Source: Methylomonas koyamae
GTDB taxonomy: Bacteria; Pseudomonadota; Gammaproteobacteria; Methylococcales; Methylomonadaceae
Direction of reading: 5' to 3'
Length of the DNA stretch: 64,000 bases
NCBI RefSeq assembly: GCF_006483455.1
Contig: NZ_PPPU01000006.1
Coordinates: 124,001-188,000 of the forward strand
Shown here: one piece after another, positions 48,350 to 64,000 of the stretch
Layout: each line of letters begins with the position of its first letter
Position numbering within the stretch: the stretch's first letter is position 1
The notes under the pieces: generated by a model
Told to the model about the DNA's origin: nothing
Databases searched by the model: none
What the model saw: only the letters and a program-made list of their open reading frames with translations
Position numbers and translations under genes: made by a program

Positions 48350-49078
48350 TTAGGGCGCTTCCAGTTTGTAGCCGAAACCGCGTACCGTTTTCAGCAGTTT
48401 TTGTTCGTAGTCGTCGTCGATTTTGCGGCGCAACTGGCGGATGTAAACATCGACCACATTGGTCAGCGGGTCGGCGCTGTAGCCCCAAACCTGCTCCAGT
48501 ATCCGGGTACGGCTCAAGACCTTGCCGGGCATGCGCATGAAGCATTCCAATAGGGCGAATTCCTTCGGCGTCAGCTCGATCGCGGTATTGCCGCGGCGTA
48601 CTTCGTGGGTTTCGCCATTCAATACCAGATCGGCGATACGCAGTTCTTTGGCTTCCGATTTAATGTCGCCACCGCGGCGGCGCAACAGTACTTCGATCCG
48701 CGCCAGCAATTCCTCGAAAGCAAACGGCTTGGTCATGTAATCGTCGGCGCCGGCGCGCAGACCCGAAACTTTATCCTGCACGGTGTCGCGCGCAGTCAGC
48801 ATCAATACCGGCGTATCGACGCCGTTACCACGCAGGCGTTCGCAAATCTGGCGACCGTTCATGTCCGGCAGCCCCAGGTCCAGCACGATCACCTGGAACG
48901 AACCTTCGCCGCCGAGGGCAATCGCCTCTTGGCCGGTACGAGCCACTTCCACGGAATAGCCTTCCGCCTTCAGGCCGCGCTGGACGAAATCGACGATGCG
49001 TTCGTCGTCTTCCACCAGCAGCACGCGCATGTAGCCCATGCCGCTCAAATTACCGGATGATGTGTATTTATCGCTCAT
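48350..49078 (-). CDS. OmpR/PhoB-family response regulator
   Basis: 242-aa response regulator. Receiver domain: MRVLLVEDDERIVDFVQRGL, phosphoacceptor Asp in QVIVLDLGLPDMNGRQICE, then LMLTARDTVQDKVSGLRAGA and DDYMTKPF. The winged-helix DNA-binding domain follows (ELTPKEFALLECFMRMPGKV, LTNVVDVYIRQLRRKID, VRGFGYKLEAP). Start choice between 49078 (MSDKYTSSG) and 49030 (MRVLLVEDD) is uncertain. It lies 12 bp after the second sensor kinase gene, with which it likely works. Confidence 0.92.
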   Translation of the reverse strand: MSDKYTSSGNLSGMGYMRVLLVEDDERIVDFVQRGLKAEGYSVEVARTGQEAIALGGEGSFQVIVLDLGLPDMNGRQICERLRGNGVDTPVLMLTARDTVQDKVSGLRAGADDYMTKPFAFEELLARIEVLLRRRGGDIKSEAKELRIADLVLNGETHEVRRGNTAIELTPKEFALLECFMRMPGKVLSRTRILEQVWGYSADPLTNVVDVYIRQLRRKIDDDYEQKLLKTVRGFGYKLEAP

Positions 49079-49090
49079 GTGTGCTTATTC

Positions 49091-50671
49091 CTATGTACTG
49101 GGTAGCAACGGCAAAGTTACGGTAAAGGTCGAGCCGAGGTTCTCCCGGCTGTCCACCGCAACGCGCCCGCCGTGCGCTTTTGTAATCGATTTTGCCATCG
49201 GCAGGCCCAGGCCGGAGCCTTCGTCGCGCGAACTTTGCGCGTTATCGCTACGGAAGTGTCGCTCGAAAATGCGTTCCAAATCTCCGCTGGGAATACCGAT
49301 CCCCTGGTCGGTAAGGCTGAAACTCGCTTCCTTACCCTGCACCCATAAGGCTACCGAAATATGCCCCCCGGGATTTGAGTAGCGGCACGCATTTTCTCCC
49401 AAAATAAATAGCACCTGTCTTAAGCGCTGCTTATCGCCGCGTACCCAGACCGGGTGCTCCGGACCCGAGAACGATACGCTGAGCGAACGCTCCTCGGCCA
49501 TGACCTGAAAGTCCTCGACCGCATTGCCGACCAGCTCGGCCAGATCGACCTTGCCCCACTCGAATTGGAGATGGGCGGTTTCGGCACGGGCCAGAAACAG
49601 CAAATCGTTGACGTATTTGCCAAGCTGCATCGCCAGCTCGACGATGCGTTGTAATGCATCCTTGTATTCTTCGGTATGGCGATCTTCGCCGCGTAAGGTG
49701 ACTTCGGCCTCGCCGCGGATCACCGTGATCGGCGTCCGCAATTCGTGGCTGATGTCGGCCAAAAACTCGCGGCGGGCTTTATCCATCCGCTTCAATTCCT
49801 CGTTCAGCAGATTCAATTCCAAGGTCCGTTCCGCTACCCGCTGCTCCAGTACCGCCCGGCTTTCGCGCAACTTGTTTTGTTGAACTTCAAGCTCTTGCGC
49901 CATTTGATTAAAGTGGCTGGCCAGATAAGCGAATTCGTCGCGGGTATCGAGTTTGATCCGGTATTCCAGATTGCCGCTGGCGATTTCGTCGGTACCTTTC
50001 ATCAGAGCCTGGATCGGCCGGCGGAAGCGGCGCATCAACAGGATGCCGGACATCAGGCTGAACAGCGCGGCCGTCACGGACGCCAGGATAGCGGTCAGTC
50101 GCGACTGGCGGACCAGGCTTTCCAATTCGCGCTTGGCTTGCTTGGCCTTTTCGCGTTCGGCGTCGATCGCGGCATCGATCAAGGGCTGAAATTTGCCGTC
50201 GATTTCCTCTTCGGTAAATTTGGTCAAGGCCTGCACGGCGTTCGCCAGTTTGCCTTGCAGGCGCAAGCGCTCCACCTCTTCGAAGCGGTATTCGCTGGCT
50301 TCCAAAAACGCCGTCAAATGGGCGACGCGTTCCAGCTCGGCCGGCTTGTCGACCCAAGTCTCGCCGCCGATCACCGGTTCCTTGACCGCGGTGTCCCTCA
50401 GCGCCTGGATCGCTGCTTGCAGCCGCCGCTTGGACGATTCGACGCCGGTTTCCGAATTCGGATTCGCGGTAATCAGCCTATCCATCCGCTGTTTGAAATG
50501 GCGGTAGGCTTCCTGCGACAACTGTTCGTAATCGTCGAAGGTTTCGTAAGCAGTCTGGCTGTGCTGGAAGTGCAGGGCCATTTCGTCGGCGCCCAGATAC
50601 AGGGCCACGCCCAGGCTGAGGACGAAGCCGAACGAAATGAACATGACGATGGCCAGCCGAAACCGAAACAT
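49091..50671 (-). CDS. Membrane sensor histidine kinase with HAMP domain
   Basis: 526-aa kinase. TM1 at about 5-26, a long helical periplasmic sensor (about residues 28-195), TM2 near 198-215, then HAMP (RRFRRPIQALMKGTDEIASG) and a coiled coil. The HisKA motif is FLADISHELRTPITVIRGEA, with the phospho-His. The HATPase domain has the N box FILGENACRYSNPGGHIS, G1 LTDQGIGIP and G2 DEGSGLGLPM. It lies between the QseG-like lipoprotein gene and the response regulator gene in one operon. Confidence 0.92.
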   Translation of the reverse strand: MFRFRLAIVMFISFGFVLSLGVALYLGADEMALHFQHSQTAYETFDDYEQLSQEAYRHFKQRMDRLITANPNSETGVESSKRRLQAAIQALRDTAVKEPVIGGETWVDKPAELERVAHLTAFLEASEYRFEEVERLRLQGKLANAVQALTKFTEEEIDGKFQPLIDAAIDAEREKAKQAKRELESLVRQSRLTAILASVTAALFSLMSGILLMRRFRRPIQALMKGTDEIASGNLEYRIKLDTRDEFAYLASHFNQMAQELEVQQNKLRESRAVLEQRVAERTLELNLLNEELKRMDKARREFLADISHELRTPITVIRGEAEVTLRGEDRHTEEYKDALQRIVELAMQLGKYVNDLLFLARAETAHLQFEWGKVDLAELVGNAVEDFQVMAEERSLSVSFSGPEHPVWVRGDKQRLRQVLFILGENACRYSNPGGHISVALWVQGKEASFSLTDQGIGIPSGDLERIFERHFRSDNAQSSRDEGSGLGLPMAKSITKAHGGRVAVDSRENLGSTFTVTLPLLPST

Positions 50672-50676
50672 GGCTG

Positions 50677-51252
50677 CTATTTGGCGTCGCCGGTTTCGTC
50701 CAACTGTTTTTCCATGGAACGGATGGCTTCCAGTTTTTCCCGCAGCAGGTGCGATTGGGTTTTTTTCGAACCGGCGGTTTCCTTGGCATCCAGCACGTTC
50801 TGCACCGATTTTTGCTTGCGTTCCAATGATCCGACTTTCTTGTTGGTGCTGTTGATCCGCTTCAAGGCTTCGGTATGGATCGCCACCAGTCGGCGGGTGC
50901 GGTCATCGGCGTAGCTTTCCGGCGGGATGTCGGCCAATTCGTCCAGGATTTTCGGGATGTCGCCGCAGGCGTCCGACAACAGGCGGCCGGTCATCAATTG
51001 CAGGGTTATGGTCTTGTCCGGGTTTTCCTTATGCCGTTTCGCCAGGCCGCGGCAGGTTTCGCTTCGGCCTTGGCTGTTCATCGCCGCCAGGTTGGCGCCG
51101 AAATCCAGCAAATCCTCGAAGTCGGAATGGACGGTCGGTGCGGCGGCGGCCACCGGCGGCCCCTGCCGCACGTTGGAATCGACTTCGGCGCAGCCGGCGA
51201 ATAATAGAATCAGCGGCGCCGGTAGTAACAGGCGCGGGTTGAAAAACGTCAT
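50677..51252 (-). CDS. QseG-like lipoprotein
   Basis: 191-aa lipoprotein with signal PAPLILLFAGCAEVDS (lipidated Cys near residue 21). The mature part is helical, with AKRHKENPDKTITLQLMTGR and a C-terminal coiled coil (LERKQKSVQNVLDAKETAGS, then LREKLEAIRSMEKQLDE). In enterobacteria QseG lies between qseE and its regulator and modulates the kinase. The order here (kinase, lipoprotein, second kinase) keeps the pairing with the upstream kinase. Family assignment by position and coiled-coil form. Confidence 0.65.
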   Translation of the reverse strand: MTFFNPRLLLPAPLILLFAGCAEVDSNVRQGPPVAAAAPTVHSDFEDLLDFGANLAAMNSQGRSETCRGLAKRHKENPDKTITLQLMTGRLLSDACGDIPKILDELADIPPESYADDRTRRLVAIHTEALKRINSTNKKVGSLERKQKSVQNVLDAKETAGSKKTQSHLLREKLEAIRSMEKQLDETGDAK

Positions 51253-51259
51253 GGTTGGT

Positions 51260-52720
51260 TTAGAACTCCCCGTTTAGCGGCAATTGCACCCGGATACGGG
51301 CGCCGTGTTGGTCTTGTCGGGCGTCGATGATTTCGACATTGCCCTGGTGGTTGGCGACGTATTCCTTGACGATGGCCAGCCCCAGGCCCGGACCTTCCGG
51401 AATGTCCTCGGCCTGCGCCGCCTTGCCGCGGTAGAACGGTTCGAAGGCGTGGGCCCGTTCGTCCAGTGGAATTCCCGGGCCTTCGTCTTCGACTTCCAGC
51501 TCCATCTGAGTGCCGGTATCGCGCAGCATGATGCGGATTTCGCCTTTCGGCGGCGAAAATTTCACCGCATTGTCCAGCAGTTGCTCAATGATGCCGCGCA
51601 GCTGTGGGGCGTTGCCGGAAATATGCACCGGCCGCAACAACATGCGCATTTCGATCGATTTGGTTGCCAGCGCCGGTTGAAACTCGGCGACCACCGTTTC
51701 CAGCAACTCCTTCATATTCAAAGTTTGTTTGCGTTTGGCTTCGCTTTGCGCGCTCAATTTGCTGTAAAGCAGCAAGTCGTCCGAAACGGCTTGCAGTTTG
51801 TCGATGTTGGCGCCCAGCTTGCGGACGATGTCCTGTTGGCGCAGATTGCCATCCAGTTCGGCCTCGTCGGCCATTTGTTCGGCGCCATAGCGGATGCCGG
51901 CCAGCGGCGCCTCGATTTCGTGGGCGACGTTGTGTATGAATTGCTGCTTCGACGATTCCAGCTCCATCAGCCGGGTGCGCAACCATTCCAGGCGGTTGCC
52001 GAGAAAGGCCAAATCGGACGGACCGCTGACGGCTACCGGCTCCTTCAGTTCCCCGGCACCCAAACGTCGGATCGAGGAATCCAACTGCCGCATCGAGCGC
52101 GAAATCACCAGCAACAGCAGCGCAATTGCGGCTGACGACAAGGCCAACAGCGCGGCGCCTCTGATTAACAAGCCTTGCTCCAGCGATTCCGACATTTGCC
52201 GGAGCTCGTTGAATTCATGATCGACGTGGCTTTCGAACTCGCGCGACAGCGTGTATGACGATTCGCGCAGCCCTTGAAAGGCCTCGTCCAGCGGCAGTTT
52301 CAGGTTGTTGTCGCCCTCTGAACCGATGATTTGCTGGTAAATCAGGTTTTCCTTTTCCGACAATTCGTTGACCAGCAACGCGATGCGGTTGTCGACCTGC
52401 AGTTTCAACAGATCGCTCAATGCCTGTTTGAACGAAGCGCGGACGGTTTCGTAGGACTGGCGTTCGTAAGGTTGGCGCAATTCGGGGTCGGATAGCAGCA
52501 CGAACAACTTGGCTTTGCGCTCGATATCGGAGGCTCGTTGCAATACCAAGCGGATGGTTTTGGTTTGTTCGAATACTTGCGAATTGACGGTTCGGCCCAA
52601 AGCCGAAGTCTGGCGCATGCCGAATGCAGCGTACATCACGGCCAGGAACAGCGGGATCACGGCAATGACAAATCCCAGCACAATCAGGGATTTCAGAGAC
52701 AGCAGGTTTTTGAATTTCAT
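51260..52720 (-). CDS. QseE/GlrK-like sensor histidine kinase
   Basis: 486-aa kinase. TM1 about 10-32 (SLIVLGFVIAVIPLFLAVMY), periplasmic helical domain to about 180, TM2 (ALLALSSAAIALLLLVIS), then HAMP-like and HisKA segment QQFIHNVAHEIEAPLAGIRY with the phospho-His. HATPase motifs: QLLDNAVKFSPPKGEIRI, EVEDEGPGIPLDERAHAFE, EGPGLGLAIVKEYV. It resembles QseE, which usually pairs with the NtrC-type QseF; no such regulator is present here. It heads the operon with the QseG-like lipoprotein. Confidence 0.85.
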   Translation of the reverse strand: MKFKNLLSLKSLIVLGFVIAVIPLFLAVMYAAFGMRQTSALGRTVNSQVFEQTKTIRLVLQRASDIERKAKLFVLLSDPELRQPYERQSYETVRASFKQALSDLLKLQVDNRIALLVNELSEKENLIYQQIIGSEGDNNLKLPLDEAFQGLRESSYTLSREFESHVDHEFNELRQMSESLEQGLLIRGAALLALSSAAIALLLLVISRSMRQLDSSIRRLGAGELKEPVAVSGPSDLAFLGNRLEWLRTRLMELESSKQQFIHNVAHEIEAPLAGIRYGAEQMADEAELDGNLRQQDIVRKLGANIDKLQAVSDDLLLYSKLSAQSEAKRKQTLNMKELLETVVAEFQPALATKSIEMRMLLRPVHISGNAPQLRGIIEQLLDNAVKFSPPKGEIRIMLRDTGTQMELEVEDEGPGIPLDERAHAFEPFYRGKAAQAEDIPEGPGLGLAIVKEYVANHQGNVEIIDARQDQHGARIRVQLPLNGEF

Positions 52721-52939: not shown

Positions 52940-55900
52940 ATGCTGATTTTTTCATTGGCCGTTCTACGGCAATTCGCCGCCGAGATTTCGCATTATCTGG
53001 TGTCTTGGCGAACATTCCCATCCCCCCGTATTCGGGGGAGGCGCGCGGCCATACTGGTTGTCGCATGGTTGGCAATCGCCGGTGCGCGACCGGCGATTGC
53101 CGATGGAGGCGAGGCGGCAGGGATACCGGTTTCGGCGCTAACCGGTCAGCCGGTCGTGTTACTCGAACTTGGCAGCGCGGCAAGCGCTCCATCCCGCTTA
53201 GTGGCGAATGTACTAGCTGTTTCCGGCCAACTGTTGCCAGATTTTCAGCACGGGGTTGCTTGGCAAGTCGAGCCGGAGGCGGTCAACGTATTGCATGCGG
53301 GCTTTGGTCAATGGCGGGCGGCGTTTCGCTTCCAATTGACTCGGGCCGTCTCCGGCGATTTTCGGTTTTGGGCGCGCTGGCGTCAGGGCGGCGATCCGGC
53401 GGTGTGCCGGCAAACTTTCGAATTGTGGTCCGGGCCGGATGTTAACCATCTGCAACAACGCGGCAGCGTACAACTGACGCCGAAAGGCTGGGAGTACGCC
53501 TGGTTGAGCGGTCCGGAGCTGATCGAATTGCAAGCAGAAGACCGGGTTGTAGAAGTGCGCAACAGCGGCGCCGGCCACGATGCCAAGGTGTTCGATGCGT
53601 TTTTGCTGGCATCGCCGTGGGCGGAGTTGCCGGTGACCGCGACCGCCGACCAGCCGGTGTTGCTGTTGGAATTAGGCAAGGCGCCGGCTTTGCTGGATTT
53701 GCCGAAACCGGACCATTTGACGGTGGTGCAGGGCACGGCCGAGGCCGGCACCAATACCGGTGCGTTGGCGATTGAACAAGACGAAGCCTTGTTGTTCCAT
53801 TCCGGTTTCGGCGACTGGAGCGGCAGCTTCCGTTTTCCGTTGCCTCCAGACAGCAAGCCCGGCCAATACCGGCTGTGGGCGCGCTACAAAAGCGGCGGCG
53901 AGGTCTCGCAAGTCGAGCAGCGCTTTAGTGTCAAGGCCGGTGCCAAGCCGGAGGAGTTGGCGAGCCGCGGCGAATTTGCCCTGACCAACACCACGCCGTG
54001 GGAGTACCAATGGCTGCCCGCCGCCGAGACAGTGACTTTGTTGCCCGGCGATCGCTGGCTGACTCTGGAAAACAGCGGCAAGGCCGACGGCGCCAAGGTG
54101 TTCGACGCCTTTGTGCTGCAACTGCAACAGCCGCTGGCCGCGGCGATGACCGGCGAGCAGGCGCAACTGCGCAACCGGTTTTTGGCTTTGACCAGACCTG
54201 ATGCCAAAGGCCCGCGGCGTTTGTTGGTGCTGGACGGTAGCGGCGCACACGGCGAGCCTTTGTTTCGCGGTTTGGCCGCCGATGCGGCACGAGCGCATTA
54301 TCAAACCATGCCGGTGACTTATTTGATCGACCAAGCCGCCGAGACGATGGCCCGCAATTTGAATCTGCCGACATTGCCGGCGGCCATCGTCACCGACGAT
54401 CATCACACCGTGCTGGGCGTTTTGACGCAGCCGGACGACGCAGCAAGCGTGGCAAAATTTCTAGCCGAGCCGGACCAAATCGGCTGGATGCCGCAACCTG
54501 TCGCAATCCCGGCGCCAACGCCAGCGCTGTTAAAAAACGGCATCCCGGCCGCCTGGCTGGTCGGCGGTTTGCAGGATGGCCAAGCCGGTCTGTCGGTATT
54601 TGGTTTGGACACCGAAACGATATCGAGGCCCAATCCCGATCAGCCCTTCCTGAGCCTGGCAATGATGGGCGGTAAACTACGCAAATGGCGGGTGGCGGCG
54701 ACCGATGCCAACGGTGAAACCACGATTCTGGACAGCACCGAACACGCCTACGGCTGGTCGCGCGGCACCGGCTACGCACAACTTTATCTGCACGCCGACC
54801 GTCCTCTGCAGGCGCAATTGCATCTGCCCCAGTCCGGCATTAAAGCGGCAGCCTGGCTGGACGGCCGCCCCTTGATCTTGGCGGACGACGGACTACCGCC
54901 AGCGGGCTTCAAGGCCTCGCTGGGCGCTCAAGCTCAAGCCCTGCTGCACGGCTTGACCACAGAAGGTTTGCTGGCCACCGCCCACGCCGAGCGGCTGCAA
55001 GCGCCGCAAGTGGCCGCGTTAAATCTGGCACCGGGTTGGCATAGCTTGCTGTTAAAACTGGTGATGCAACACGATCAGGGGCAGCGCTTTTACTTTGCCG
55101 GGCTGTTCACCGACGCCGGCGGCAAGCCTCTCGAAGGCTTGCGGACGCAAACCGCCGATCCTGATGCCGATCTGGCCCTGAACCAGATCGCCGCCAAACT
55201 CAGGCCGGTGATTTTCAATACTGCCCCGGCCAATCTGCCGCATCCCGGTGCGCCGATCAAGCTGAGTATCGATCTGCGCTGGCAGCCGATTTTGGAGGAA
55301 GCCAAACTGGAGACGCCGCTGCCGCGCTTCCCGGCCAAATTGCGTCTGCGGTTGCTCGATTACAGCGGTCGGCAAATCGCCGAGCGGGAGATTCGCAGCC
55401 GCTTCCCCGGCCAGGTCGAAGCCGATTTCGGCAAACTCGACCAGCCCGGCTATTACGCCATATATCCGTCTTTGTACACCGAAGACGGCCGGCCGATCAT
55501 GCACTATCCGGCCGACGGTTTTAGCGTCGTCGCCGGCAACAACGCCCAAAAGCAACGGCTGGTGCAAAAGAAAGTCTGGAACAACGATTACTATGCCTTG
55601 GCTGACGGCGACAAAAGTTTCCGCCAAACCGGCGCTTACTTCGATTGGCTGGAGCGGATGGGCATTTTCAGAAGCCTGGCTAGTTATCCGGGCTTCGATC
55701 CGCAATACCGGCTATTGTGGGAGCAAGCCAAACAGCGCGGTCTGGACCTGTTTGCCGACTCGGCCGGCGACAGCCACTGGCTGAACGACAAACCTGAAGA
55801 CGGCCGCCGTTTTGTCGATGCTGTCGCCGGTTTTACCCGCTTCTTCAAAGCCAGCAACGAGATTGACATTCGCCACGAGCCGGAATGGCAAAAACTGCGC

Positions 55901-56680
55901 GAACCTACGCATTGGCTGGAACGAGCTAAATCGGAATACCAAATGGTCCATCAAGCCCGCAACGATGCCCATTACCTGGGCGGCAGCCTGGTGCGGCCGG
56001 GCGAGGGCGGCTGGTTTAAACAAGTGTTGCAACTGGGTTTGGATAATCACCAGGATGCCTGGGACGTGCACGCCTATCCGCAACGGCCGCCGCGCTTCGG
56101 CGGGCCGATCGGCAACGGCGAGTTGGAAGACGAGCGCGGAGTGCTGGCGGCTTATGCTAGTTTAGGTAAAACCAATAAATTGCCGTTCTGGCTGGGCGAA
56201 ACCGGCGCCAAGGCCATGCACGGCTTTAGTGGTCGGCGCTGGCAGGCGGAGCAGGTGGCAAAAATCGTGGCTTGGGTGAATAGCCGCCCTGATTATCTGG
56301 GCGTGGCGTTTTGCATCGCCCATGAATACGACCTGGCTTACGGCCGAATCTGGGATTATTCGCTCGGTCACAAACCCGGCGAAGCGGCGCTGTACACCGC
56401 CAGCGCGCTGATCGACGGTCTGCCGTACCGGCCGGTCGATACTCACGACGCCAACGTCCAGGCCGGCTATTTCGGCGAAACCCTGATGCTTTGGCGCGAG
56501 CAAGGCGAGGGTGTGTGGTCGGTACAACTCGACTCTGAGCGGCAATGGGTTTTGGTGGATGTGGTCGGGAAGATGCGGAAATTGGCGACCGATGCGTCAG
56601 GTATCGTCGGCGTGTCGATCTCGGCTAGCCCGGTGTATGTCCTACCCGAGGCCGTTTACCGTCTTTTAACTGCGGGCTAA
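52940..56680 (+). CDS. Large exported clan GH-A-like glycosidase
   Basis: 1246-aa protein with a signal-like segment at about residues 35-55 (AAILVVAWLAIAGARPAIA) after a 34-residue extension. Two tandem beta-domains follow (about 65-235 and 240-400), each opening QPVVLLELG/QPVLLLELG and with QRGSVQLTPKGWEYAWL / RGEFALTNTTPWEYQWL. The C-terminal third looks like a (beta/alpha)8 barrel of clan GH-A: acid/base Glu in FFKASNEIDIRHEPEW (residue 974) and nucleophile Glu in PFWLGETGAKAM (residue 1087). It lies beside an exopolysaccharide locus, so a polysaccharide lyase/hydrolase role is plausible. The specific GH family is not known to me. Confidence 0.72.
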   Translation: MLIFSLAVLRQFAAEISHYLVSWRTFPSPRIRGRRAAILVVAWLAIAGARPAIADGGEAAGIPVSALTGQPVVLLELGSAASAPSRLVANVLAVSGQLLPDFQHGVAWQVEPEAVNVLHAGFGQWRAAFRFQLTRAVSGDFRFWARWRQGGDPAVCRQTFELWSGPDVNHLQQRGSVQLTPKGWEYAWLSGPELIELQAEDRVVEVRNSGAGHDAKVFDAFLLASPWAELPVTATADQPVLLLELGKAPALLDLPKPDHLTVVQGTAEAGTNTGALAIEQDEALLFHSGFGDWSGSFRFPLPPDSKPGQYRLWARYKSGGEVSQVEQRFSVKAGAKPEELASRGEFALTNTTPWEYQWLPAAETVTLLPGDRWLTLENSGKADGAKVFDAFVLQLQQPLAAAMTGEQAQLRNRFLALTRPDAKGPRRLLVLDGSGAHGEPLFRGLAADAARAHYQTMPVTYLIDQAAETMARNLNLPTLPAAIVTDDHHTVLGVLTQPDDAASVAKFLAEPDQIGWMPQPVAIPAPTPALLKNGIPAAWLVGGLQDGQAGLSVFGLDTETISRPNPDQPFLSLAMMGGKLRKWRVAATDANGETTILDSTEHAYGWSRGTGYAQLYLHADRPLQAQLHLPQSGIKAAAWLDGRPLILADDGLPPAGFKASLGAQAQALLHGLTTEGLLATAHAERLQAPQVAALNLAPGWHSLLLKLVMQHDQGQRFYFAGLFTDAGGKPLEGLRTQTADPDADLALNQIAAKLRPVIFNTAPANLPHPGAPIKLSIDLRWQPILEEAKLETPLPRFPAKLRLRLLDYSGRQIAEREIRSRFPGQVEADFGKLDQPGYYAIYPSLYTEDGRPIMHYPADGFSVVAGNNAQKQRLVQKKVWNNDYYALADGDKSFRQTGAYFDWLERMGIFRSLASYPGFDPQYRLLWEQAKQRGLDLFADSAGDSHWLNDKPEDGRRFVDAVAGFTRFFKASNEIDIRHEPEWQKLREPTHWLERAKSEYQMVHQARNDAHYLGGSLVRPGEGGWFKQVLQLGLDNHQDAWDVHAYPQRPPRFGGPIGNGELEDERGVLAAYASLGKTNKLPFWLGETGAKAMHGFSGRRWQAEQVAKIVAWVNSRPDYLGVAFCIAHEYDLAYGRIWDYSLGHKPGEAALYTASALIDGLPYRPVDTHDANVQAGYFGETLMLWREQGEGVWSVQLDSERQWVLVDVVGKMRKLATDASGIVGVSISASPVYVLPEAVYRLLTAG

Positions 56681-56805: not shown

Positions 56806-59130
56806 TTACCAGGAAAAGCTGCCAGCAACTTGACCGCTACCGTCGTAATTGAAACCGGATTTGACGACGTTGGTGACCGCGAACGCGCAGGTACCCGAGG
56901 TGCTGCTCGGCAAAGTCGAACTGCTGATGCTGACGCTGCCGTTGGTAGCCGTGGTTCCGGACGTTTTGCCCGTTACCGCAGTGGAGCCCGAAGTTGTGGC
57001 GACCGAACCGCTCCAGTTTCCATATACCGTCGCGCTGGCGACGCCGGACGTGTCGTAGTTGACCGTGACACTGGCCACGCACTGCGACTTGCCCCTGCTC
57101 AATAATTTACGCGAGATCTTTGTGCTGCCTACCGTCATGTTCGCCGCGACCGGTGTTTGCGTCACGTTAACCGTTTGCGTGGTGCTGTTTTTCAAGCCGC
57201 TATTGTCGGTTACGGTCAAAGTTGCCGTGTAGTTGCCCGGTGTGTTGTAGACGTGGCTTGCGCTGCTGCTACTGCCGCTGCTGCTGCCGTCGCCGTAGTT
57301 CCAGTCGTAGCTGACGATGCTGCCGTCCTGGTCGCTGGAGCCGGAGCCGTTGAAGGTGGTGGTCAGCGGCGCATCGCCGCTGGTCGGCAATGCGGAAATT
57401 ACCGCGGTGGGCGAAACCAGCGTGGTCGAGCTTTTCGGGTAGTTGCCGGTGATTTGATATTGCCCAACGCTGCCGTAGTCGGAGTAGCCGGTCGTCAAAT
57501 CGCCGAATCCGACGCCTTCCACTTGCAGAAAATATTGGCCGGCAGGCAAGGTCGCGGTTACTGCCGCGGACAGGCTATCCGCCGGATTTGCCGCGCTCAC
57601 GGTATTGCCGGCACTGTCGACCAGTTTCAGCGAAATATCCAGATTCGGAGCCACAGAACCGGAACCGACGTTGAACTGCACGTTGCCGCCGTCGGTAAAG
57701 AAGGTAAACACGTCGACATCGGTATTGCGCTCGATCACGCCGGTTTGCGATACGGCAGCGGCATCGCCCGACAGCGGCGCGGCGCTTGCGGTTGTGCTCG
57801 GATAGTCGTCTGCGCGGATCGGAGCGCCGGCCGCGCTGATGACCGCGATATCGTCCTGCAGATTATTGGCGTCGGGATACTCGCCTTTGCTCCACTGCGA
57901 CACCGGTTTGTAATAACCGACCCCCATAATCGACGCCCAACCGGTGGCACCGCTGCCATGGCCGGAGTAATAGCCGACGGTCGATGTGCCATCGTGATTC
58001 AGGTTCAGGTTATGCCCGACTTCGTGCGATACCGCTTCGGCAACATATTTCGGAAAACCGTTGCCTAATTTATCGAAGAACGCCCAGGCCGGTTGGTAAC
58101 GGTCCGGCGTGGTGGAGGAATAGTATGAGAAAACATTGACATAAGCCACGCCACCGCAGGACTGGCTGCAAAGTTCCGGCATGGAGCGGGTGATCACGGC
58201 TCGGGTGCCGTACTGGGTATCGCTGCTGCTGGTGCGCTGCAGCGCGTCCGCCGTCGGTTCTTGGGTAGTGACGTCCACATCGAACGGCGCATAATCTTCA
58301 GCGACGCGTTGCCAAATTTCGCGGATATTACTCAACTCCGCGCTACTGAAGGCGCCCGGATTGCCGTCGGTATCGTAGGCCTGCGCAGTCAACGTGCCGC
58401 TGTTCCAGGCCGTGTTGCTGGCGACGTGGCCGTTGAAATCCAGATAAATGACCCGGTTCGAGCTGGGTTTACTGTGCAATGCAAACGGATCTGCCGTCGA
58501 GGTTGCCAACGACGAAAAGGTCGAAGATTCGGCCGCGGTTGCGTAGGCTTCGTTAGCGGCGCTGTTTCCGTCTTGGGGCGCGGGTACCGGTTTGGTATCG
58601 GATTCGACGTAAAGCAAGCGGCCGCCTTGGTCTATCCACGCGGTTTGATCGGTTTTAAGAATGTTTTCCAGGCGTTCGGCGGACATGTCGTAAGCCTGAG
58701 CCACCAGCGGCAAGTTACTGCCCAATGCGTCGATGGCGGCTTGGCCGTTCACATTGCCGGGCAGGGTAATCGTCGGAAACGGGGTTTCGGATTCCGCAGC
58801 TTGCGTAGCTTGGGTAGATTTGGACAAGGATTTTTGGGCAGTGTCCTTGATATCCGATAACGGATTGGACTGACCGGAACCGTTCAGCCCGGAGACAAAG
58901 GCCTGTACCCGACCGTCAGCGAGCATGGTGAGGCCGTAGTTATAGCCGACCAACGCCTTTTCTGCGTCTTCGCGCGACGCAAAGTAAATAGTCTCGGTCG
59001 GAATGCCGGCTGCGGTGGCCGGTAAGCTTTGGCTGGGGTCGGCGTCTATCGACGCCGTCGGTTCGGACGTTGCGGCGCAACCCAACAGCGAGCTGAGTAG
59101 CGCGGAAGCGATGAAGGTTTGGTTGTTCAT
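56806..59130 (-). CDS. Metzincin lipoprotein with PPC and PKD domains
   Basis: 774-aa secreted lipoprotein (signal with lipobox SALLSSLLGCAATS; start at 59130 behind GGGGGAT, the longer frame to 59325 being untranslated). The metzincin motif AVSHEVGHNLNLNHDGTSTV (HExxHxxxxxH) lies near residue 405. Also visible: a prepeptidase-type C-terminal domain (GNVQFNVGSGSVAPNLDISL), a PKD domain (TFNGSGSSDQDGSIVSYDWN, YTATLTVTDNSGL) and a C-terminal domain with a Cys pair (SQCVASVTV, SGTCAFAVT). Probably an extracellular protease. Confidence 0.85.
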   Translation of the reverse strand: MNNQTFIASALLSSLLGCAATSEPTASIDADPSQSLPATAAGIPTETIYFASREDAEKALVGYNYGLTMLADGRVQAFVSGLNGSGQSNPLSDIKDTAQKSLSKSTQATQAAESETPFPTITLPGNVNGQAAIDALGSNLPLVAQAYDMSAERLENILKTDQTAWIDQGGRLLYVESDTKPVPAPQDGNSAANEAYATAAESSTFSSLATSTADPFALHSKPSSNRVIYLDFNGHVASNTAWNSGTLTAQAYDTDGNPGAFSSAELSNIREIWQRVAEDYAPFDVDVTTQEPTADALQRTSSSDTQYGTRAVITRSMPELCSQSCGGVAYVNVFSYYSSTTPDRYQPAWAFFDKLGNGFPKYVAEAVSHEVGHNLNLNHDGTSTVGYYSGHGSGATGWASIMGVGYYKPVSQWSKGEYPDANNLQDDIAVISAAGAPIRADDYPSTTASAAPLSGDAAAVSQTGVIERNTDVDVFTFFTDGGNVQFNVGSGSVAPNLDISLKLVDSAGNTVSAANPADSLSAAVTATLPAGQYFLQVEGVGFGDLTTGYSDYGSVGQYQITGNYPKSSTTLVSPTAVISALPTSGDAPLTTTFNGSGSSDQDGSIVSYDWNYGDGSSSGSSSSASHVYNTPGNYTATLTVTDNSGLKNSTTQTVNVTQTPVAANMTVGSTKISRKLLSRGKSQCVASVTVNYDTSGVASATVYGNWSGSVATTSGSTAVTGKTSGTTATNGSVSISSSTLPSSTSGTCAFAVTNVVKSGFNYDGSGQVAGSFSW

Positions 59131-59615
59131 TGATGTATCCCCCTGAAAATTGCTGCGCCGGAATCGGCCTGCAGCTTTGGCGAAGTTGCTGTTCGGGAGA
59201 TATTTAAGAAAATTAAGTCTCAATTTATTGAGAGTTGTGTCCGGCTTTTGGGCATCCCGCAAAACCGAGATTCGGCAATGTGACGCTGCACAAAATAACG
59301 CCGAATTCGAGGGGCGCTCCCGCAACTGCCCATTTCAATGCATGTTTGGCTGTCCGTTCGCTGAGCGGGAGCGGTTCATTTCCGGGCCTGCGATTGGGTT
59401 GAGCTCGATGACGCTGAACCGTTCAGCGCGCTTATCCAACTCTAATTTCCCTCTCATCTGCTCTTAATTAAACCCCCAGGTTTTCTCTCATTTTGCGCCG
59501 GTAAGCTTTGTACCCAAGCCGGCACTGCTGAATCGCAAACCCGGCAACAGGTTGAGGATGCCAAGGATGGCGTCCTTAAGTCTTCGGAACTAGACGCAAC
59601 AGGGGGAACGCCGCT
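59131..59615. other. 485-bp divergent region between protease and exopolysaccharide genes
   Basis: No gene on either strand. It holds the promoters of both genes. Imperfect inverted repeats occur near 59553-59580 (GGATGCC / GGCGTCC, and AAGGA-TGGCG-TCCTT), just upstream of the polyprenyl-phosphate transferase gene, which could be an RNA leader. I compared it mentally with the GEMM c-di-GMP riboswitch and found no match. Confidence 0.4.
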
Positions 59616-61037
59616 ATGCCACTCGGCTTCGGAAATATCTTCAACGGACTCTTTCGCCAATACGGTCATACCGTGATTCTGCTGTTACGGATCATCGACG
59701 TGGCCATGCTGTTAGCCGCTGCCTGGGCAGCGCACTATTTCTGGTTGCGCGAATATGCGGTTGACCAGCATTACCGGATCGTAACTGCGTTGGGCGTACT
59801 CGGCGCGATCATTTTCTTCGAGATCGGCCAAGTCTACCGGCCCTGGCGCAACGACGCGATGCGCGGCGAGATCGCCCGCATCGTTAGAGCCTGGCTGCTG
59901 GCGCTGCTGGCGGTGGTTTCCATCGTATTTCTAGTGCGCTTGCATGTCTGGTTCGGTTCCAGTTACCGCTGGATTGCCTCCTGGGGCGTGCTGGGTTTGG
60001 TCTGCGTATTGGCTGCGCGCTCGGTGATGTCGCAGGTTTTGCGTTGGCTGCGGTCACGGGGTTGGTCGCAGGGCAAAATCATCATGGTTGGCCTGAATCA
60101 AATGGCCGTGGCGGTGGCGCGGCAGTTGAACCATTCGCCCTGGGCCGGTTTGCAGGCGGTGGGTTATGTTGACGACCGCGGCGCTGGCCGGCAGCCGCTG
60201 AACGACCATGACCTGCCGTGCCTGGGCAGATTGGCTGACTTGCAGGCCCTGATCGACCGGCACGCTATCGACGAGGTCTGGGTGGCTTATCAAGGCGAAT
60301 CCCTGACCGAGCGGGCGCAATACCAATTGCGGCATTTGCCGGTCAGCATCCGGCTGGTGATCGATTGCTTTGCCTTCAAACAAAGCAAGTTTCTCAGCCT
60401 GAACACCGTGGCCGGCATTCCGACTCTGGATTTTTCGGTGTCGCCGTTGCACGGCGTCAACCGCTACATCAAAGAAGTCGAAGACCGTTTGCTGGCTTTG
60501 ATTTTACTGGTGCTGATCAGCCCGCTGATGCTGCTGATCGCTGTCGGCGTCAAGCTGAGTTCGCCCGGCCCGGTGTTTTACCGCCAGGTCAGGGTGGGCT
60601 GGAACAACCGCAAATTTACCATGCTGAAATTCCGCTCGATGCCGGTGGATGTCGAGTCCAAAACCGGCGCGGTCTGGGCCAAGCCCGGCGAAAATCGGGC
60701 TACTCCGTTCGGCAGCTTCCTGCGCAAAACCAGCCTGGACGAATTGCCGCAATTGATCAACGTTTTGCGCGGCGACATGTCCCTGGTCGGCCCGCGCCCG
60801 GAACGTCCGGACTTCGTCGAAGTGTTCAAGGAACAAGTGCCCAACTACATGAAAAAACACATGGTCAAGGCCGGTATCACCGGCTGGGCCCAAGTCAACG
60901 GCTGGCGCGGCGACACCGATTTGAACCGGCGCATCGAGCACGATTTGTATTACATCCAGAACTGGTCGTTGTGGTTCGATATCGAGATCGCTTTCCGCAC
61001 CGTGCTGACCGGTTTTGTCAACAAAAACGCCTATTAA
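59616..61037 (+). CDS. Polyprenyl-phosphate glycosyl-1-phosphate transferase (WcaJ/PssZ type)
   Basis: 473-aa initiating glycosyltransferase of exopolysaccharide synthesis, putting the first sugar phosphate on undecaprenyl phosphate. Four to five N-terminal transmembrane helices, a nucleotide-binding-like middle domain ([20 protein letters not shown]), a further TM helix ([20 protein letters not shown]) and the catalytic domain: [54 protein letters not shown], and [18 protein letters not shown]. This is the TIGR03023 layout. Confidence 0.94.
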
Positions 61038-61049
61038 GGAAACCTGAGC

Positions 61050-62153
61050 ATGTACAGACTGCTTCCCATCCTGTTGACGTTAGCGCTACCGGGCTGTTTT
61101 TTGGCGCCGGGCATGGACATGAACACCGACAGTAACGGCTTGACCGAAATCGAGTTGCCGGCCCGAAAGGACGGCCAGTTGGTAAAGGAGAAAGTCCGCG
61201 TCATGCCGATCACCGCCGACCTGATCATCGAGAAGGAAGTGGCCCGGCAACAGGCGGTCGGCCAGTTGCTGCCGGTGGACAATACCAAGACCAGTTACCG
61301 GATCGGACCGCAGGACCGGTTGCAGATTACGGTGTGGGAGCACCCGGAATTGAACGATCCCGGCGGTGAAAAAATTCTGCCGGAGATGGCAGGTAAGGTG
61401 GTCGACGACAACGGCGATCTGTATTACCCCTATGTCGGCAATCTTCATGTCGGCGGCAAGACCATTCCGGAAGTGCGCGAAGAGCTGACCCGCGAATTGT
61501 CGCGTTTTTTCAAGAAGGTCAAACTCGACATTCGGGTGTTGTCGTTTCAGGCTCACCGGATGGCGGTGGTCGGGGAGGTCAAGCAACCGGGGGTATTGGC
61601 GATGAACGAAACCCCGCTGACCGTGGCCGAGGCCATCAGCCGCGCCGGCGGCGCCACCAAGGATTCGGACATGAACAATGTTGCCCTGGCTCGCGACGGC
61701 AAACTATACAAACTGGATGTGCAAGCCCTGTATGAAAAGGGGTTGACCACGCAGAACGTGCTATTGAAAGACGGCGATGTGCTCAATGTCGGCGACCAGA
61801 AGGACAGCAAAGTCTACGTGATGGGCGAGGTCGGCCGGCAACAGGCGGTGCAGATCAACAAAGGCCGGATGAGTCTGGCCCAGGCATTGGCCGAGGCCTA
61901 CGGCGTCGATTTCAACACCTCGCGTCCGGGCGACATTTATGTGGTGCGCGCCGGCGACATGAAACCGGAAATCTTCCAGCTCAATGCCGAATCGCCCGAC
62001 GCGATGATCCTGGCCGAGCAATTTCCGCTGCAAGCCCACGATACCTTGTTTGTCGGTACTGCCGGCGTTACCCAGTGGTCGCGGGTGTTGAACCAGATTC
62101 TGCCCGGATCGTTTACCGCGATCATGTCGCAAGCGGCACTGATGGGAATGTAG
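61050..62153 (+). CDS. Wza-like outer-membrane polysaccharide export lipoprotein
   Basis: 367-aa lipoprotein (MYRLLPILLTLALPGCFLAP, lipobox LPGC). The poly-export domain shows TSYRIGPQDRLQITVWEHPE and the SLBB repeats QAHRMAVVGEVKQPGVLAMN and KVYVMGEVGRQQAVQINKGR. A C-terminal amphipathic helix (SFTAIMSQAALMGM) fits the outer-membrane pore of Wza. It starts 12 bp after the initiating transferase gene. Confidence 0.93.
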   Translation: MYRLLPILLTLALPGCFLAPGMDMNTDSNGLTEIELPARKDGQLVKEKVRVMPITADLIIEKEVARQQAVGQLLPVDNTKTSYRIGPQDRLQITVWEHPELNDPGGEKILPEMAGKVVDDNGDLYYPYVGNLHVGGKTIPEVREELTRELSRFFKKVKLDIRVLSFQAHRMAVVGEVKQPGVLAMNETPLTVAEAISRAGGATKDSDMNNVALARDGKLYKLDVQALYEKGLTTQNVLLKDGDVLNVGDQKDSKVYVMGEVGRQQAVQINKGRMSLAQALAEAYGVDFNTSRPGDIYVVRAGDMKPEIFQLNAESPDAMILAEQFPLQAHDTLFVGTAGVTQWSRVLNQILPGSFTAIMSQAALMGM

Positions 62154-62197
62154 TTAAAAATCGCCCCCGGCTGCTGGTGTGCGTAGAGGGGAATCGA

Positions 62198-64000
62198 ATG
62201 TTTTCAAGCGAAAAGGTTGTGAAAAGTATGTATCCACCCAATGAAGCCGTTCCGGTGTTACCGTTGCCGAATCCAAACCGCCTGCAAGAGCAGAGCGTCA
62301 GCATTCGCGACTACGTGGATTTGCTGATCGAAGGCCGTAAAACCCTCTTGATCGCTCTCGCCGCGGTGTTGACCGTGACGCTGGTCTACCTGGTTTTGGC
62401 GCCGCGGACCTACAAAGCCGATGCCTTACTGCGCATCGACAAGAACAAAGCCCTGCTGGCCGCCAATCTGCACGGCGACAACAATCAGACTCCGGCCGAA
62501 GCCGAGAGTCCGCGGGCGCAGCGCGAAGTCGAGATTCTGCGTTCGCGTTCGGTGCTGGGTAAGGTGGTCGACAATCTGAATCTGGCGATTGAAATCGAGC
62601 CCAGTTATTTTCCGCTGATCGGCGAAACCCTGGCCCGTAAACACGATCGCCACGATGGCGTCGCCGGTGCTTGGTGGGGCTTCGGCCGTTGGGCCTGGGG
62701 CGGCGAGAAGGCCAAGGTGGCCGCGTTCGAGGTTCCGGACCGTTACCTGGAACAGGAATTTACGCTGATCGCACTGGAACACGGCCGCTACCAGATCCTG
62801 GCACCGAACGGCGCCGAGTTGTTAAGCGGCGAAGTCGGCCAGGTCGTCACGGCCGAAATCGGCGAGAAAACCCCGGTGGCGATTAAAATCGAAGTCCTGG
62901 ACGCCCATCCCGGCACCCATTTCGAGCTGGTGCGGCGCACGGCGTTATCGGCGATAGAAACCCTGCAGAAAGCCTTTGCCGTCAAGGAAGTGTCGAAAGA
63001 TACCGACATTTTGAGTGTGGAACTGAAAGGCCGCGATCCCGAGCAATTGGCCAAATCGGTCAACGACATCGCCGCGATTTACGTCAACGCCACGGTGAAT
63101 TGGGAATCGGCCGAAGCCTCGCAAAAATTGGCTTTTCTGGAAAGCCAACTGCCGATCGTCAAAGAGCGCCTGGAAAAAGCCGAGCAGGGTTTGAGCGCCT
63201 ACCGGCAACAGCACGGCGCGGTGGACATTTCCGCCGAGGCCGAGATTCTGTTGAAGCAGGCTTCGGACATGGAAACCCTGAGCATCCAGCTCAAGCAAAA
63301 ATACGACGAACAAAGCCAGCGGCTGGAGTCCGAGCATCCGGACATGATGGCTACCAACGCCCAGATCAAGCGAGTGAATGGCAAGTTGGCGGCCCTGGAA
63401 AAACGCATCAAGGATTTGCCCAAAACCCAGCAAAACATGGTGAGCCTGTCGCGCGATGTGCAGGTTAATACCGAACTGTATACCTCGTTACTGAACAGCG
63501 CCCAGGAGCAACGCATCGCCGCCGCCGGCTCGTTGGGCAACTCGCGGATCGTCGATTTCGCGGTGACGCCGGAAAAACCGTATTGGCCGAAGCCGGGCCT
63601 GCTGTTGGCGATCGCCACTCTGTTGGGTCTGAGCCTGGGATCGGCATGGGTGTTTCTGCGCCACTCGCTGCAGCGCCACGACAATTATCCGGCCTTGCTG
63701 GAATACCAGGTCGGGCTGCCGATGTTCGCTGCCATCCCGCATAGCAAGAAACAACGCAAATTGGCTGGTCTGCTCGGCCGCGACAAAGACGGCGGCATTC
63801 TGGTCAACGAAGATCCGCTGGATATCTCGGTCGAATCGCTGCGCGGCCTGCGCACCACGCTGGAGGCGACGCTGGCCAACCATGAAAGCAAGGTCATCAT
63901 GGTCAGCAGTCCGGCGCCGGCGATGGGCAAGTCGTTTGTCAGCTCCAACCTGGCGGCACTGCTGGCCAGCATCAAGAAGCGGGTGCTGGTGATCGACGCC
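62198..64000 (+). CDS. Wzc-like polysaccharide co-polymerase / tyrosine autokinase (partial)
   Basis: 601 codons visible, cut by the right window edge. N-terminal TM near residue 45 (LLIALAAVLTVTLVYLVL), a long periplasmic Wzz-like domain with coiled coil (LAFLESQLPIVKERLEKAEQ), a second TM near residue 465-485 (LLLAIATLLGLSLGSAWVFL) and a cytoplasmic BY-kinase domain: SSPAPAMGKSFVSSNLA (Walker A) then RVLVIDA (Walker A'). The start at 62198 has GAGGGG upstream. It controls chain length and export together with the Wza-like protein. Confidence 0.92.
   Translation, partial: MFSSEKVVKSMYPPNEAVPVLPLPNPNRLQEQSVSIRDYVDLLIEGRKTLLIALAAVLTVTLVYLVLAPRTYKADALLRIDKNKALLAANLHGDNNQTPAEAESPRAQREVEILRSRSVLGKVVDNLNLAIEIEPSYFPLIGETLARKHDRHDGVAGAWWGFGRWAWGGEKAKVAAFEVPDRYLEQEFTLIALEHGRYQILAPNGAELLSGEVGQVVTAEIGEKTPVAIKIEVLDAHPGTHFELVRRTALSAIETLQKAFAVKEVSKDTDILSVELKGRDPEQLAKSVNDIAAIYVNATVNWESAEASQKLAFLESQLPIVKERLEKAEQGLSAYRQQHGAVDISAEAEILLKQASDMETLSIQLKQKYDEQSQRLESEHPDMMATNAQIKRVNGKLAALEKRIKDLPKTQQNMVSLSRDVQVNTELYTSLLNSAQEQRIAAAGSLGNSRIVDFAVTPEKPYWPKPGLLLAIATLLGLSLGSAWVFLRHSLQRHDNYPALLEYQVGLPMFAAIPHSKKQRKLAGLLGRDKDGGILVNEDPLDISVESLRGLRTTLEATLANHESKVIMVSSPAPAMGKSFVSSNLAALLASIKKRVLVIDA

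Follow-up and report, generated by a model that had tools for sequence, protein, structure and literature searches.

The 64,000-nucleotide stretch of Methylomonas koyamae analyzed here (assembly GCF_006483455.1, contig NZ_PPPU01000006.1, positions 124,001 to 188,000; hereafter the window) carries, at 52940-56680 on the plus strand, an open reading frame (ORF) that begins with ATG and encodes a protein of 1246 amino acids, with genes of an exopolysaccharide (EPS) locus downstream and divergent sensor kinase genes upstream. The original prediction, made from the letters of the window, had described an exported enzyme of 1246 residues resembling the glycoside hydrolases (GH) of clan GH-A, and both the ORF, which is intact, and the probable export of its product have held up: the N-terminus contains a hydrophobic stretch that ends, as judged by eye, in AIA at residue 54, and Sec-type signal peptides were read by eye from the alignment at the N-termini of many homologues. 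Since the first ~30 residues are not conserved among homologues, the true start may differ. The protein has a single match within its own 4.5-Mb genome, contains only two cysteines (at 156 and 1125), and has its nearest named homologues in Methylomonas, at 88, 80, and 70% identity. With a probability of roughly 70%, we regard it as an exported, retaining beta-glycosidase of clan GH-A, distantly related to PslG and family GH39, that acts on the EPS of the adjoining locus.

The predicted fold of the C-terminal part provides the first line of evidence. Modeled alone (residues 868-1246, i.e., the C-terminal 379 residues, with a 53-sequence alignment), this part reached a predicted local distance difference test score (pLDDT) of 85.6 and a predicted template modeling score (pTM) of 0.89 and took the form of a (beta/alpha)8 barrel of the clan GH-A kind, followed by a beta-sandwich. 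Foldseek placed the GH39 structure 5jvk first (E 1.8e-15) and the PslG entries 5bx9, 9g17, and 4zn2 next (E 4.8e-14 to 4.5e-13); VIA likewise placed 5jvk first (Z 27.6, 340 aligned residues, root-mean-square deviation (rmsd) 4.0) and gave the PslG entries Z 24.9-25.2 (330-340 aligned residues, rmsd 3.8-4.1). The same four structures thus lead both comparisons, and the fold is nearest to GH39. The GH39 beta-xylosidases stand directly behind PslG in Foldseek and rank low in VIA. Other clan GH-A families that combine the barrel with a C-terminal beta-sandwich, namely GH79 (heparanase, beta-glucuronidase) and GH51 (arabinofuranosidase), follow in VIA at Z of about 19.5-23, below 5jvk and PslG, and PDB sequence searches found none of them. 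GH2 enzymes, which headed a Foldseek search with the whole model, were given no weight, their template modeling scores being 0.09-0.18 by query length, with rmsd of 20-25 over several domains. The model and its fold matches are hence in agreement with the clan GH-A likeness proposed earlier.

A second line of evidence is the glutamate pair of the barrel. E974 and E1087 are each present in all 53 aligned homologues, as are K970, N973, D976, H1044, and Y1046. In the model, N973-E974 come after the strand at 968-970 and E1087 lies at the end of the strand at 1083-1088, strands that we number fourth and seventh by our own assignment; the arrangement is that of clan GH-A, with a putative acid/base Glu behind strand 4 and preceded by Asn, and a putative nucleophile Glu ending strand 7. 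The pair singled out in the original prediction (974 and 1087) is thereby borne out in both its conservation and its placement within the modeled barrel. Residue conservation also bears on another possibility, that the protein is a catalytically dead or non-hydrolytic scaffold or matrix protein that binds the EPS, or a transglycosylase that rearranges it. Catalysis has been lost in some GH-like proteins, and the large N-terminal array of beta-domains would suit such a role; nevertheless, the invariance of N973, E974, D976, H1044, Y1046, and E1087 (53/53) points to kept catalysis and speaks against a dead scaffold, although a transglycosylase would keep the same residues too. Taken as a whole, this alternative appears quite improbable.

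The third line of evidence is remote homology at the level of profiles. In sequence searches of Pfam, NCBIfam, and PDB, neither the whole protein nor its fragments nor the family profiles had a significant match. PF01229 (GH39) matched nothing in the organism's own genome at E 1 and none of the 53 members at the same threshold; the protein is therefore not filed as a GH39 member. The enzyme family was then compared with gammaproteobacterial PslG-like/GH39 proteins found with PF01229, from five of six loci (L094, the weakest match, having been dropped). Two of these five proteins were themselves compared with PDB: for one (L090) PslG was the best match (E 8.1e-8), and for the other (L089) beta-xylosidases came best (7.7e-10), with PslG later at E 8.4e-5. 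The hhalign score between the two families was 50-51 (E 4e-6 to 8e-6), and it ranged from 43.3 to 56.6 over five row sets, the full one included. Column shuffling never took the score above 22.7 (100 draws), or above 27.9 when applied to the best row set (60 draws), and reversed profiles did not exceed 19.5. E1087 was aligned on the nucleophile Glu of the PslG-like proteins. By these profile alignments, the enzyme appears to be a remote relative of PslG/GH39. The earlier statement that no GH family could be named is thus correct as regards significant matches in Pfam, NCBIfam, and PDB and is superseded in that the nearest family can be named, GH39 with PslG and 5jvk; the suggestion of a new group is likely to be right at the sequence level, judged against these three databases.

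The genes downstream of the enzyme identify the locus on which it is proposed to act. As had been noted before, the enzyme gene lies beside EPS genes, those for a WcaJ-type sugar transferase, Wza, and Wzc (59616-64000), with one unrelated minus-strand ORF (56806-59325) between enzyme and WcaJ. Beyond the window, the locus continues with Wzy-like, flippase-like, methyltransferase, and glycosyltransferase genes, the flippase-like gene having a weak Polysacc_synt match under the cut-off; by its gene content, this is an EPS locus of the Wzx/Wzy type. At its far end lies a gene resembling acetyltransferases and autoinducer synthases (L084, 8791-9540), with PF13444 above and PF00765 just below the cut-off. 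The intervening ORF encodes 839 amino acids with a strong PKD domain and a weak match to reprolysin-like metallopeptidases, and in the synteny scan described below none of the 43 loci had a gene assigned as its relative.

Wzy was taken as the most locus-specific EPS gene for a test of co-occurrence, an orthologue being a match of at least 60% identity, such that four genomes with weak matches only (G022, G059, G075, and G084) were counted as lacking it. Among the 200 nearest genomes, own genome included, 44 match the enzyme (two of them, G008 and G015, as short remnants) and 45 have the Wzy orthologue: the two genes occur together in 40, the enzyme without Wzy in 2, a remnant without Wzy in 2, Wzy without the enzyme in 5, and neither gene in 151. 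With remnants counted as absent, the numbers for both, enzyme only, Wzy only, and neither are 19/1/1/15 within the genus and 21/1/4/138 outside it, counts that ignore kinship. In the 40 genomes with both, the two genes lie within 50 kb in 18, share a contig at a distance of 150 kb to 3.3 Mb in 8, and are on different contigs in 14, which says little on distance in fragmented assemblies. In both remnant genomes the enzyme persists as a broken copy in its usual place, and neither has a Wzy match. The retention of unlinked copies (8 of the 40) and these remnants argue for a link beyond mere neighborhood, and in its co-occurrence with Wzy the enzyme is associated with one EPS locus in the manner of PslG. 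The earlier proposal that the enzyme acts on the polysaccharide made by its neighbors accordingly gains indirect support from co-occurrence, unlinked retention, and the two remnants, the activity itself being a prediction.

The same data bear on two further explanations. The protein could be a clan GH-A hydrolase secreted to attack some outside or cell-wall glycan, in scavenging or wall remodeling, and be encoded near the EPS locus by coincidence; many relatives do carry the gene away from that locus, in one example it sits upstream of what appear by eye to be glycine-cleavage genes, and a multidomain architecture is usual among secreted polysaccharide-degrading enzymes. As its presence follows Wzy even when unlinked, and as remnants occur in two genomes without Wzy, we consider this explanation unlikely. 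Alternatively, the partner of the protein might be the divergent sensor kinase (51260-52720) and not the EPS locus, with the protein acting as a sensor or effector in the periplasm. Upstream of the enzyme, the minus strand carries this kinase, a 191-residue protein, a second kinase, and an OmpR-type regulator, and in a synteny scan of 43 loci with the enzyme gene and a length above 7 kb, the kinase is adjacent in 32, as against 15 with WcaJ within reach. These counts are lower bounds, the loci being cut at various lengths and some genomes appearing twice; the scan itself counted 34 kinases, including one about 7 kb away (L051) and one 32% match to another kinase (L078), both of which were left out. 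However, G008 and G015 keep both kinases, the 191-residue protein, and the regulator at full or near-full length, the HK2 match next to the enzyme remnant being full-length, and four of the six genomes without enzyme and Wzy retain a full-length kinase relative (44-49% identity). From these two observations, the fate of the enzyme seems to go with the EPS locus and not with the kinase, and a partnership with the kinase is very improbable. The kinase group as a whole (48350-52720), in which the 191-residue protein has no Pfam match, is divergent to the enzyme in many relatives.

Several observations weigh against an EPS-directed, PslG-like hydrolase. On the structural side, the best classical GH39 beta-xylosidase listed in VIA (4m29) has a Z of only 19.4, under the GH79 and GH51 rows, such that the likeness of fold is to the PslG/5jvk side of GH39. 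In the profile alignment, hhalign puts the PslG-type acid/base on E980, a Glu in 46 of the 53 homologues that lies six residues from E974; we prefer E974 because it is invariant, has Asn before it, and stands behind strand 4. With respect to distribution, G190 and G022 have the enzyme without Wzy (the G022 copy runs off the contig end), 5 of the 45 Wzy genomes lack the enzyme, and in G026 and G185 the EPS locus adjoins the kinase with the enzyme missing from between; the enzyme is thus not needed to keep the EPS locus. Lastly, a leuA tree of 35 genus members, in which G938 (the window's species) was assumed to have both genes and from which G001 and G030 were left out, gave 7 changes per trait and only 2 independent supported pairs, in which Wzy changed in the same direction as the enzyme in an average of 1.8 of the 2 (median p of 0.5 by the sign test, no significance).

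The N-terminal two thirds of the protein comprise a series of further modules (Table 1). The tandem domains reported earlier, with their recurring starts (QPVVLLELG at residue 70, QPVLLLELG at 238) and WEY segments (WEYAWL at 184, WEYQWL at 354), were found as described: residues 70-232 and 234-397 are 37% identical (BLASTP E 6e-30), their family profiles align in hhalign with a probability of 100 (E 1.5e-46), and the internal duplication is real. The best Pfam signal in them, fn3_3 (14 of 45 members, best E 6.7e-4), was not built on. A model of residues 56-1246 from a 50-sequence alignment (pLDDT 82.9, pTM 0.76) places after the two beta-domains an alpha/beta domain, two beta-rich regions, the barrel, and the final beta-sandwich, so that the original prediction, although correct as to the duplication, had passed over a probable thioredoxin-like domain and further beta-rich regions. 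In the model, residues 405-512 form a helix, a strand, a broken helix, a strand, a helix, two strands, and a helix, which is the alpha-beta-alpha-beta-alpha-beta-beta-alpha order of the thioredoxin fold, and a proline (P480), invariant across the 27 aligned rows, precedes the fourth strand. The same 27 rows contain no cysteine in this domain, and hence no CxxC redox motif. Sequence support is marginal: thioredoxins appear among the PDB sequence matches at E 1.3-2.2 (ranks 8-10 of 10), the hhalign score against thioredoxins is 17.5 with a maximum of 16.7 in 40 shuffles, and Pfam gave no thioredoxin match for the domain. Owing to the order of its modeled helices and strands, the domain is probably a cysteine-free thioredoxin fold; we know of no thioredoxin-fold module in any GH-A enzyme.

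Table 1. Coordinates of the enzyme gene, its predicted parts, and the EPS genes within the window.
Feature	Position	Strand	Basis
Whole gene, probably exported multidomain clan GH-A enzyme, 1246 aa	52940..56680	+	ORF, homologues
N-terminus, signal-peptide-like hydrophobic stretch (residues 1-54; true start uncertain)	52940..53101	+	Homologue N-termini, by eye
Beta-domain copy 1 (residues 66-232)	53135..53635	+	Duplication; nearly all strands in model
Beta-domain copy 2 (residues 233-397)	53636..54130	+	Duplication; nearly all strands in model
Probable thioredoxin-fold domain without Cys (residues 405-512)	54152..54475	+	Helix/strand order in model; marginal sequence support
Beta-rich middle region (residues 524-752)	54509..55195	+	Model
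Beta-rich region ahead of barrel (residues 753-867)	55196..55540	+	Model; 5jvk alignment from query 755 (model residue 700)
Predicted catalytic (beta/alpha)8 barrel (residues 868-1160)	55541..56419	+	Model, fold matches
Codon of E974, proposed acid/base, in invariant N973-E974	55859..55861	+	53/53; follows strand at model residues 101-103
Codon of E1087, proposed nucleophile	56198..56200	+	53/53; aligns with PslG-type nucleophile Glu
C-terminal beta-sandwich behind barrel (residues 1161-1246)	56420..56677	+	Model
WcaJ-type undecaprenyl-phosphate sugar transferase, EPS locus	59616..61037	+	Context
Wza-type export protein, EPS locus	61050..62153	+	Context
Wzc-type kinase/chain-length protein, runs past window; Wzy-like gene next	62075..64000	+	Context

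The enzyme appears to be a feature of one bacterial order. Among 32 loci in contigs of GTDB species, 30 are named for methanotrophs of the Methylococcales; the other two bear the labels 'uncultured proteobacterium' and Methyloversatilis. This last locus (L055), from a metagenome-assembled genome under the name Methyloversatilis universalis, equals G178, a genome of the window's order, in match length and score and is probably mislabeled. Outside Methylococcales, no homologue was found in the sampled genomes, samples that leave absence elsewhere unproven: the C-terminal 526 residues against 369 genomes of the class and the whole protein against 398 genomes of the phylum matched the own genome only, as did a barrel profile against 274 class genomes and an N-domain profile against 239 phylum genomes, save for two weak matches outside the order (E 0.1 and 0.3) that were taken for chance. 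Plasmids and viral contigs likewise held no homologue, and a search of a limited literature library brought up no title or opening of an abstract that dealt with the protein or its locus. In one genome of the order (G191; L065 and L064) the enzyme occurs in several divergent copies, among them a 1476-residue frame 41-43% identical to it and a partial one adjoining. A more specific version of our interpretation is tentative: the protein may found a new family of clan GH-A that is limited to Methylococcales, and be an enzyme dedicated to the processing of a single conserved methanotroph EPS, transcribed separately and equipped with a target-binding N-terminus that includes a redox-dead domain of thioredoxin fold.

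Comparison with known systems places the enzyme most closely beside PslG, the hydrolase of the Psl locus of Pseudomonas aeruginosa, which CAZy assigns to GH39 and which PMC11912335 describes as a retaining endo-beta-glucosidase with the catalytic residues Glu165 and Glu276. According to PMC9075953, PslG hydrolyses Psl and alters its location and signaling, and is not essential for Psl synthesis. The two proteins share a barrel with a C-terminal beta-sandwich (as predicted here, with a Z of about 25 over 330-340 residues), a profile-level relation to PslG-like proteins, a similar glutamate spacing (113 residues here, 111 in PslG), and a tie to an EPS locus; dispensability for the polymer in P. 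aeruginosa (PMC9075953) also has a counterpart here in the Wzy genomes that lack the enzyme (5/45). They differ in that the solved PslG chains have 412-416 residues as against 1246, with 14-16% identity and no sequence-level match, in the extra N-terminal domains of the present enzyme, and in the setting of its gene, which is flanked by opposite-strand genes, faces away from a kinase gene, and in many cases has no linkage to the EPS locus. The best structural match, 5jvk, is a GH39 protein of the gut symbiont Bacteroides cellulosilyticus WH2 with a chain of 490 residues and again 14-16% identity, and its match to the full model extends over the beta-rich region ahead of the barrel (424 aligned, Z 23.1). 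AlgL and PelA have folds and families that differ from those of this enzyme. They resemble it in role, as a lyase and a hydrolase of P. aeruginosa EPS loci whose processing of polymer is tied to the locus (PMC9075953). The enzyme appears to be a far-diverged and unusually modular form of the EPS-locus polysaccharide hydrolase, itself a known kind of system.

On this basis, a course of action may be proposed. The tandem N-terminal beta-domains would anchor the enzyme on the glycan or the export assembly, a role in which the thioredoxin-like and middle beta-domains perhaps share. E974 would protonate the glycosidic oxygen of a beta-linkage, presumably within the chain (endo mode), while E1087 would form a covalent glycosyl-enzyme that water or another sugar would then resolve, as expected of a retaining enzyme. 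In line with what has been proposed for the action of PslG on Psl, EPS chains would thereby be trimmed, released, or cleared, either in the periplasm or extracellularly.

Finally, the reason why EPS clusters encode enzymes that cut their own product has been discussed for PslG, AlgL, and PelA (PMC9075953). Methanotrophs, several of them in culture, would offer an independent test case through a second and far-diverged lineage of the GH39-like kind, whose retention or loss goes with one EPS locus while its gene often lies elsewhere in the chromosome. If the proposed activity is real, the enzyme would also be a specific tool for cutting methanotroph EPS, which may be relevant to methane bioprocessing, where slime is either a nuisance or a product.

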